Assembly: GCF_014643175.1 (NCBI RefSeq)
Contig: NZ_BMJH01000001.1
Location: 186,001-250,000, forward strand
Length of the DNA: 64,000 bases
Reading direction: 5' to 3'
Origin: Hoyosella rhizosphaerae
GTDB taxonomy: Bacteria; Actinomycetota; Actinomycetes; Mycobacteriales; Mycobacteriaceae
A program made the translations under genes and the position numbers. The notes beneath the pieces were generated by a model. It was not told where the DNA came from. It did no database searches and was given only the letters and a program-made list of their open reading frames with translations. This document shows positions 33,550 through 35,317 of the stretch, piece after piece (position 1 is the first letter of the stretch; each line of letters opens with the position of its first letter).

Positions 33550-33621
33550 CGGCAGACCACCGACCACCATTCGCTCGGTAATTCGGTTGCACGAGGCGTC
33601 GGCTGCAGGCACCCTTGAAAG

Positions 33622-33706
33622 CATGAAGAGCTGACACCCGTCCCGCCCGTTCTGTGGCCTTGCGTGCCCTGCGGGCTTTCCGTCTCAACGGATAGGTGTC
33701 TTCATG
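33622..33706 (+). promoter_or_regulatory. Likely translational attenuator of the ABC-F gene
   Basis: CATGAAG-GACACC (33622-33638, with a four-base bulge) can pair with GGTGTCTTCATG at 33695-33706, whose ATG is the start codon of the ABC-F gene; CGT/ACG pairs extend the stem. The left arm contains a tiny frame ATG-AAG-AGC-TGA (33623-33634, Met-Lys-Ser). An inner GCCC-TGC-GGGC hairpin sits in the loop. Leader peptide plus start-codon-masking hairpin is the arrangement by which ribosome-targeting antibiotics induce many resistance genes. Pairing is seen; the mechanism is inferred. Confidence 0.55.
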
Positions 33707-35317
33707 CCTCACGAAATTTTGCGCGCAATTGATCTGGTCAAAATTTATGGCGACCGCCGTGTCATCGATGGACTCAACCTCACGAGTGCGCCAGGGGAGC
33801 GCATCGGTTTAGTCGGTGAAAACGGGGTCGGGAAGTCGACGCTGCTCAGGCTGCTCGCCGGGATTGAGGAACCCGACGACGGCCGCGTCGAGCGACCACA
33901 GGAAGTGGGTTATCTCGCACAGGAACTTCCCTACGCACCAGATACAACAATCCAGGAAGCAGTCGATGAAGCGCTCACGCTGACGCACCAGATCGTGGCT
34001 GATCTCACCGCCACCGCAGAAGCTGTGGCAATCAGACCAGAGGACGGCCCCGCGCTTGACCGCTACGCGAACCGCCTTGCCCGCGCTGACGAATACGGCG
34101 TGTGGGACGCTGAGAATCGAGCCGAAACTGTACTTGACCGGCTGGGCCTCGGCGGGATCGCGAGATCAACGTCAGTTCAGGAGATTTCTGGTGGCCAACG
34201 GTCCCGACTGGCGCTCGCAACGCTGCTCATCCGTCAGCCGAGAGCGATGCTGCTCGACGAGCCGACTAACCACCTCGACGATGCCGCCATCACGTTTCTA
34301 GAGGAACAGTTGCGCACATTGCCTGGAACGGTAGTTCTCGCATCTCACGACCGAGCCTTTCTCGATGCGGTGTGCACAACGGTGATTGACCTTGACCCGT
34401 CACGGTTCGGAGTGACCCGCTACGGCGGCAGCTACTCGTACTACCTGGCTGAGAAGCGGAAGGAACGCGTTCGGTGGGAGCAGCAGTACGCGGCGGAACA
34501 GGCTGAGCTCCGCAATCTCGACTATGCGGTGGCAGTGAGCGCGCGTGAGGTCAGCCATGGTCGCCCCATGCGTGACAACAACAAGCTTGGCTACGACCGG
34601 CTCGGTGGTCGTGTCGACAAACAAGTGTCCAGGCGCGTTCGCAATGCGCAACGTCGCTTCGATGAACTGATGGCCGATCAGGTTGCCGAGCCAGTCGAAG
34701 TACTGCGCTTCGGCGGGCAACTGACGAGCACAAACCATGTTGTCGACGACCCTCTGATCACGGTAAAGGACGTTGTAGTACCACGACGTTTGACTCTCGA
34801 CGCGTTGGAAATTACGGCGTCCGAGCGGTTGTTGATCACTGGCCCGAACGGTGCAGGAAAGTCCACACTGCTCACTGTCCTCGCCGGTGAACTGCAACCT
34901 ACGGCCGGGATCGTGGAGGCGGCAGACGGAATAACGCGGCGAATGCTCCGACAGGATGTTTGGTTCAAACACTCTGATCGCAGCGCTTCGTCGACATACT
35001 TCGAACAAGCCGGAGATGACGCGCCAACACTCACAGCGCTCGGTTTGCTCACCGCAGCACAGGCCAACCAAGCGGTGGCTCACTTGTCGGTGGGGCAACG
35101 GCGCAGACTAGCGCTGGCGATCCTGCTTGCCGAACCACCAGACGTCCTGTTGCTTGACGAACCAAGCAATCACCTTTCGCTACGCCTGGTTGAGGAGTTG
35201 GAGGATGCGTTTACATCGGCTCCGGGGGCCATCATTGTTGCCTCCCACGACAGGTGGCTGCGGGCACGGTGGGACGGCCGGGAGATTCAGTTGCATGATG
35301 GAGAGGTGAAACTCTAG
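33704..35317 (+). CDS. ABC-F family ATPase (ribosome protection type)
   Basis: A 537-residue cytoplasmic protein with two ABC domains and no membrane segments. Walker A motifs are Gly-Glu-Asn-Gly-Val-Gly-Lys-Ser near residue 38 and Gly-Pro-Asn-Gly-Ala-Gly-Lys-Ser near 380; signatures are Ile-Ser-Gly-Gly-Gln-Arg-Ser near 164 and Leu-Ser-Val-Gly-Gln-Arg-Arg near 464. The linker between them (about 250-340) is basic and helical. ABC-F proteins act on the ribosome E site; the antibiotic-resistance members displace macrolides, lincosamides or pleuromutilins. The start codon appears locked in a hairpin with a leader frame, which favours a resistance role. Confidence 0.9.
   Translation: MPHEILRAIDLVKIYGDRRVIDGLNLTSAPGERIGLVGENGVGKSTLLRLLAGIEEPDDGRVERPQEVGYLAQELPYAPDTTIQEAVDEALTLTHQIVADLTATAEAVAIRPEDGPALDRYANRLARADEYGVWDAENRAETVLDRLGLGGIARSTSVQEISGGQRSRLALATLLIRQPRAMLLDEPTNHLDDAAITFLEEQLRTLPGTVVLASHDRAFLDAVCTTVIDLDPSRFGVTRYGGSYSYYLAEKRKERVRWEQQYAAEQAELRNLDYAVAVSAREVSHGRPMRDNNKLGYDRLGGRVDKQVSRRVRNAQRRFDELMADQVAEPVEVLRFGGQLTSTNHVVDDPLITVKDVVVPRRLTLDALEITASERLLITGPNGAGKSTLLTVLAGELQPTAGIVEAADGITRRMLRQDVWFKHSDRSASSTYFEQAGDDAPTLTALGLLTAAQANQAVAHLSVGQRRRLALAILLAEPPDVLLLDEPSNHLSLRLVEELEDAFTSAPGAIIVASHDRWLRARWDGREIQLHDGEVKL

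Follow-up and report, generated by a model that had tools for sequence, protein, structure and literature searches.

Introduction

Ribosome-mediated attenuation of genes encoding ABC-F proteins is already known (PMC8546547, PMC9226507), and in several cases the upstream open reading frame (uORF) of the leader is only three codons long. Such leaders have been described for CplR (MR[I/M]), VmlR (MIN) and VmlR2 (MK[L/Q]) (PMC10201436), and the are5sc gene of S. coelicolor has the three-codon leader MLV (PMC12421871). Of the two three-codon uORFs predicted for are5sc one alone was translated in vitro, and on the are5sc uORF ribosomes are held at the start codon by lincosamides, pleuromutilins and streptogramin A (PMC12421871). 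Leaderless uORFs are also known, in mycobacteria (PMC4633059).

Here we analyse the leader of an ABC-F gene of Hoyosella rhizosphaerae, located on a stretch of 64,000 nucleotides (contig NZ_BMJH01000001.1, positions 186,001 to 250,000) that we refer to as the window. An earlier note on this DNA had proposed a hairpin that masks the start codon of the ABC-F gene, and a Met-Lys-Ser leader that it considered unusually short. The latter remark does not hold, since the leaders of CplR, VmlR and VmlR2 (PMC10201436) and of are5sc (PMC12421871) have the same length.

Results

The frame ATG-AAG-AGC-TGA (Met-Lys-Ser) is located at positions 33623-33634 of the + strand, ahead of the ABC-F open reading frame. 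Between GCATGAA-(GAGCT)-GACACC (33621-33638) and GGTGTC-TTCATGC (33695-33707), 13 base pairs can form around a bulge of 5 nt. This helix is contained in the predicted MFE fold of the leader, and so the left arm with the short frame that pairs across the ABC-F start, as described in the earlier note, is present in both the sequence and the fold. The features of the region are as follows.

33578..33583, + strand: GTAATT, 5/6 positions as in the WblC/WhiB7 motif GAAAWY, separated from the -35 element by 3 bp
33587..33592, + strand: -35 element TTGCAC, which fits TKGMNN
33610..33615, + strand: -10 element CACCCT, a weak match to TANNNT with one mismatch, after a 17-bp spacer
33621..33627, + strand: left-arm extension GCATGAA, window-specific, pairs with 33701-33707, missing in H. 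altamirensis
33623..33634, + strand: three-codon uORF ATG-AAG-AGC-TGA, predicted to be leaderless, start-N6-TGA kept in relatives
33633..33638, + strand: left (anti-Shine-Dalgarno) arm GACACC, from within the uORF stop codon to uORF nt 16
33645..33650, + strand: 5' strand of a conserved inner hairpin, GCCCGT, pairs with 33671-33676, covariation
33671..33676, + strand: 3' strand of the conserved inner hairpin, GCGGGC, partner of 33645-33650
33694..33698, + strand: Shine-Dalgarno sequence AGGTG of the ABC-F gene, 5 nt before the ATG, GGTG/GGAG kept there in relatives
33695..33700, + strand: right arm GGTGTC, pairs with 33633-33638
33701..33707, + strand: right-arm extension TTCATGC over the start codon, window-specific, pairs with 33621-33627
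33704..35317, + strand: ABC-F ATPase gene, 537 aa, two ABC domains, best model the TlrC/CarA/OleB/SrmB family, below the curated cut-off

A small extra hairpin, CCGT-CTCA-ACGG (33680-33691), lies just 5' of the Shine-Dalgarno sequence, and its counterpart in Hoyosella altamirensis reads CCGT-ACCG-ACGG. An Rfam search of the window matched no family.

In the window alone the pairing is of modest strength, barely above chance. The duplex of the two arms has a predicted energy of -13.6 kcal/mol, a value equalled by 977 of 20,000 shuffled arm pairs (~5%), and among random ATGs in the window 15% had an upstream partner that pairs as well. Folding of the whole 141-nt region gave no advantage over its shuffles (z 0.23) and was therefore dropped as uninformative. 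Such weak single-sequence statistics favour the explanation that the inverted repeat lies beside the start codon by chance. This explanation, which we consider extremely improbable, is refuted by a leader that is conserved and co-varies in several families of actinomycetes, and it is the comparison with relatives that is decisive.

The product of the downstream gene contains PF00005 twice, with an inter-domain linker and no membrane domain, and matches EttA, VmlR and other ABC-F structures. Among all NCBIfam models the top hit was NF000171 (TlrC/CarA/OleB/SrmB), a group classed as macrolide resistance ARE4 (PMC6723617). The score was 451.8 bits against a curated cut-off of 800, and under the NCBIfam cut-off rule the protein was not assigned to this group.

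Homologous loci were collected by searches at family, order and class level, and their upstream regions were read. The best-matching named relative protein is that of H. altamirensis (L031, 76% identical). No match at E 1e-100 was found in three further Hoyosella genomes. The uORF of H. altamirensis is identical to that of the window (ATGAAGAGCTGACACC), and GGGTGTC precedes the ABC-F start. The TTCATG that pairs with the uORF start codon in the window has become TATG: in both H. altamirensis loci (L031, L061) and a near relative (L062) TCTTCATG reads TCTATG, and the ATGAA:TTCAT part of the helix is missing. Thus, the uORF and the GACACC:GGTGTC arms are conserved in the closest relatives, unlike the part that covers the start codon. 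The more distant Saccharopolyspora locus L032 (52% identical) has ATGAAGCGCTGA. Judged by this comparison, the conserved target of masking is the Shine-Dalgarno sequence of the ABC-F gene rather than its start codon. We therefore retain the masking hairpin of the earlier note for its Shine-Dalgarno arms, and reject start-codon masking as a conserved function since the closest relatives are without that part.

An exact ATG/GTG-N6-TGA frame was present in 45 of the 58 order- and class-level ABC-F loci, and shuffling the upstream regions produced a three-codon frame similarly spaced from a -10 box at a rate of 0.65%. Ten of the 13 loci without the frame sit directly behind another ABC-F gene, whose promoter they would share. 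When the central motif GCCCGGCGGG was used as an independent selector, the uORF was found in 40/64 loci under a strict -10 rule, a count blurred by tandem genes and by the longer leaders of Streptomyces; a tandem check attributed most of the absences to tandem ABC-F genes. In the tandem pairs L102-L104, L111, L121, L127-L129, L134 and L136 the second gene is without a leader. At L150, L202, L203 and L210 an ATGTGA start-stop overlaps the GTG-N6-TGA frame (GATGTGANCC), and a one-codon uORF is possible there.

The uORF starts with ATG in 55 cases and GTG in 5, and its second and third codons are diverse: the encoded peptides are MKS, MKN, MKL, MKR, MES, MEL, MDN, MDS, MDD, MRN, MRI, MRH, MLN, MLS, MVI, MYS, MWI, MNI, MIY, VIY, VIR, VRN and MIS. 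As read from these upstream regions, length, start, position and TGA are conserved and the peptide sequence varies, so that of the Met-Lys-Ser leader of the earlier note the frame is kept but Met-Lys-Ser itself is not.

This bears on the possibility of a peptide-specific arrest, in which a short nascent peptide and a macrolide would together stall the ribosome, as for ErmCL and MsrDL, and the ABC-F protein would be a macrolide protector like TlrC or OleB. The macrolide resistance group ARE4 (PMC6723617) indeed supplies the closest NCBIfam model, and codon 2 frequently encodes a basic residue (AAG, CGC, AGG). Peptides such as MKS, MDN, MEL, MES, MVI, MYS, MWI, VIY and MIS nevertheless share no motif, the three-codon are5sc leader is not stalled by erythromycin (PMC12421871), and other ABC-F genes of the relatives are preceded by longer, conserved leaders (MGTLL[FI][FL]L, MLIRSVH), as would be expected if the peptide is read. 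We consider peptide-specific arrest unlikely.

Two such groups of longer leaders were seen at ABC-F paralogues. L079, L081 and L082 have a conserved octapeptide leader, MGTLL[FI][FL]L*, which begins ~10 nt past the -10 box, is thus near-leaderless, and looks like a peptide-reading leader of the macrolide type. L066, L067 and L069-L072 have a longer uORF that opens with ML[IL]RSVH and extends as far as the start of the ABC-F gene, and carry a CGAAGYGTTC / GAATGCTTCGGAG hairpin.

The consensus of WblC-dependent promoters is GAAAWY, 3 bp, TKGMNN, 16-19 bp and TANNNT, with the transcription start site 7-8 bp past the -10 element (PMC7157823). The region upstream of the uORF reads GTAATT-CGG-TTGCAC-17 bp-CACCCT-7 nt-ATG and thus resembles a WblC/WhiB7 promoter. 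With the -10 box 7 nt upstream of the ATG, the 7-8 bp rule predicts a start site at 33622/33623, i.e. at the uORF ATG or 1 nt before it. In 60 leaders, we counted 63 xAxxxT boxes with a gap of 6-10 nt to the uORF start and none with a gap of 2-5, 11, 13 or 14. Since the frame starts 6-10 nt after the -10 box, the three-codon uORF is probably leaderless; no Shine-Dalgarno sequence was seen by eye for it. At least five matches to GAAAWY exactly 3 bp before the -35 element were present in 14/58 loci, versus 0-1 at offsets of at least 3 nt. The Hoyosella genome (L185) encodes WhiB7, a Wbl protein that ends in GVWGGEIFDQGTVVARKRSRGRPRKVA and has an RGRPRK hook.

For the bases from the uORF stop codon onwards (TGAC...), the most favourable pairing partner in nearly all leaders with two arms is the ABC-F Shine-Dalgarno region. 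The arms change together, as in GACATCACC/GGTGATGTC (L088, L089), GACACCACC/GGTGGTGTC (L122), GACTCCG/CGGAGTC (L101), GACTCCGA/TCGGAGTC (L140) and GACACCTC/GAGGTGTC (L150). Because the arms shift register, we used a partner-swap test in place of RNAalifold on the full MAFFT alignment. Arms with their own partner paired at -16.2 kcal/mol, compared with -12.6 kcal/mol (sd 0.57) when partners were swapped between species, and the native pairing was reached in none of 50,000 partner permutations (23 representatives). Covariation among homologous leaders, which the earlier note had suggested looking for, was hence found, and the attenuator-like layout with a uORF overlapping the masking arm is conserved and co-varies in relatives.

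Co-varying arms are also compatible with a switch made of RNA only, in which the hairpin would mask the Shine-Dalgarno sequence constitutively, or sense temperature or a protein, and the uORF would be untranslated; as the stop codon lies within a pairing arm, its conservation could be structural alone. Such a switch does not explain why the start codon, which in the relatives lies outside the arm, is always ATG or GTG, nor the fixed two-codon gap between start and TGA and the fixed distance from the -10 box. We regard it as improbable, somewhat more so than peptide-specific arrest.

The inner hairpin (33645-33650/33671-33676) is conserved as well: in 19 leaders 99.1% of the cells were paired, three pairs had changed on both sides, and its covariation score was 0.312 against 0.152 for shuffled sequences. 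This conservation would agree with transcription attenuation, in which RNA polymerase would be halted by the inner CCCGC:GCGGG hairpin, or by Rho, if no ribosome stalls on the leader, and lmrC and are5sc are controlled at the level of transcription (PMC8546547, PMC12421871). Against it, a scan of the window leader for intrinsic terminators was empty and no U-run is present, and for this reason we have not filed the leader as a transcriptional attenuator of the lmrC type; moreover, the arms end at the Shine-Dalgarno sequence, as in translational control. Transcription attenuation is in our view a rather doubtful explanation, about on a par with peptide-specific arrest.

The predicted effect of a ribosome on the uORF was assessed by the cost of opening the ABC-F ribosome-binding site, a measure adopted because the unpaired probability is ambiguous for the window. 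Occluding nt 1-16 of the uORF lowered this cost in the window from 14.6 to 10.5 kcal/mol. Over 42 leaders the mean drop was 3.8 kcal/mol; it exceeded 2 kcal/mol in 33 of them and did not in the remaining 9. The effect was smaller when a neighbouring stretch was occluded instead. AGGTG of the window is not predicted to be unpaired more often once a ribosome has stalled (probability 0.215 without and 0.10 with stalling), as a weak local hairpin takes the place of the long one; in these models this is the main in-silico weakness of reading the leader as a switch.

A group of leaders from Streptomyces and allies (L112-L117, L125, L130, L131, L133, L135) have an arm of 12-14 bp, for example GACATCGAGACCG:CGGTCTCGATGTC, and two more arms that pair over the Shine-Dalgarno sequence. 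In several of them this four-arm layout, like that of erm leaders, stands in place of the two-arm one. Their predicted opening was mixed.

A covariance model of the leader element was run against 397 genomes of the order, 45 of which contained hits. The 30 model-hit loci that were fetched all lie upstream of ABC-F sequence, some of the genes being degenerate, and none was ahead of another type of gene, which argues that the element belongs to the ABC-F gene family. Seven hits of lower significance (E about 1e-4 to 0.01) were inspected: L216 precedes an ABC-F remnant, and the other six are not followed by an ABC-F gene and look like chance hits. At L209, L210 and L216 an intact leader precedes a shortened or broken ABC-F gene, as if the gene had decayed first.

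Discussion

Comparison of the loci brings out a conserved uORF, its position after the -10 box, co-varying arms and a promoter motif; from these we infer the transcription start site, translation of the uORF, stalling, the drug class and induction. On this basis we think it likely that the leader controls the ABC-F ribosome-protection gene by translational attenuation, with a leaderless, three-codon, peptide-blind uORF behind a WhiB7/WblC-type promoter. The promoter would start the transcript at the uORF ATG or 1 nt before it. Without drug, the ribosome on the uORF would depart at once and the GACACC:GGTGTC pairing would hide the ABC-F Shine-Dalgarno sequence. A ribosome with AUG in its P site reaches to about nt 16 (toeprint distance), and the left arm of the window corresponds to uORF nt 11-16. 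A ribosome stalled by a drug on the start codon or on codon 2 would thus cover ~16 nt from the A of the AUG, exactly the left arm, whereupon the Shine-Dalgarno sequence would be free and the ABC-F protein made. The uORF peptide would not be read, and its length and position alone would count.

As the uORF peptide is not conserved, the most plausible inducers are drugs that prevent the first peptide bonds whatever the sequence, which suggests lincosamides, pleuromutilins and streptogramin A. Macrolide arrest depends on peptide context; with no peptide conserved here, macrolides seem less likely inducers. More broadly, we lean, with some reserve, towards a widespread class of actinomycete attenuators that use the 5' end of the mRNA as sensor, with a leaderless three-codon uORF, a WhiB7 promoter and no peptide code. 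In such a class the sole read-out would be a ribosome stuck on the first 16 nt, and the ABC-F gene would respond to inhibitors of early elongation.

If this is true, three-codon peptide-blind attenuation is not confined to Firmicutes but is found widely among actinomycetes, on leaderless mRNA. Leaders that keep length and position while the peptide drifts would show, as a natural experiment, which features an antibiotic-sensing uORF needs, and reading the leader would predict inducing drugs for a poorly studied group of ribosome-protection genes. In a literature search that covered a minority of subscription journals, we found no description of a leaderless three-codon uORF, a masking arm at its stop codon and a WhiB7-type promoter combined.

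Among known systems, the leaders of cplR, vmlR and vmlR2 of Firmicutes (PMC10201436, PMC9226507) are similar in having a three-codon uORF ahead of an ABC-F gene. Stalling there uncovers the ABC-F Shine-Dalgarno sequence, as proposed for the window leader, and the inducers are drugs with little context dependence, like those proposed here. The cplR leader differs in its 212 nt and its intrinsic terminator with U-tract, whereas in the window leader no terminator was found, the uORF is apparently leaderless and the masking arm has its 5' end within the uORF stop codon. The genes are5sc and tiaA of S. coelicolor (PMC12421871) are likewise actinomycete ABC-F genes with links to the WblC regulon, a comparison of layout and not of homology; their 5'UTRs are 232 and 194 nt long, and are5sc belongs to the ARE5 subfamily and is controlled at transcription (PMC12421871). 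The four-arm attenuators of erm type resemble some Streptomyces relatives (L115, L116, L125, L130), with an arm 1:2 beside the uORF, a possible arm 2:3, and an arm 3:4 pairing over the Shine-Dalgarno sequence; compared with these, the window leader is a minimal two-arm form with no peptide arrest motif. Finally, in the leaderless cysteine attenuators of mycobacteria a leaderless short ORF also acts as the sensor within a cis-regulatory leader; these read cysteine codons (PMC4633059), whereas the window leader appears to read inhibition of the ribosome, independently of codons.
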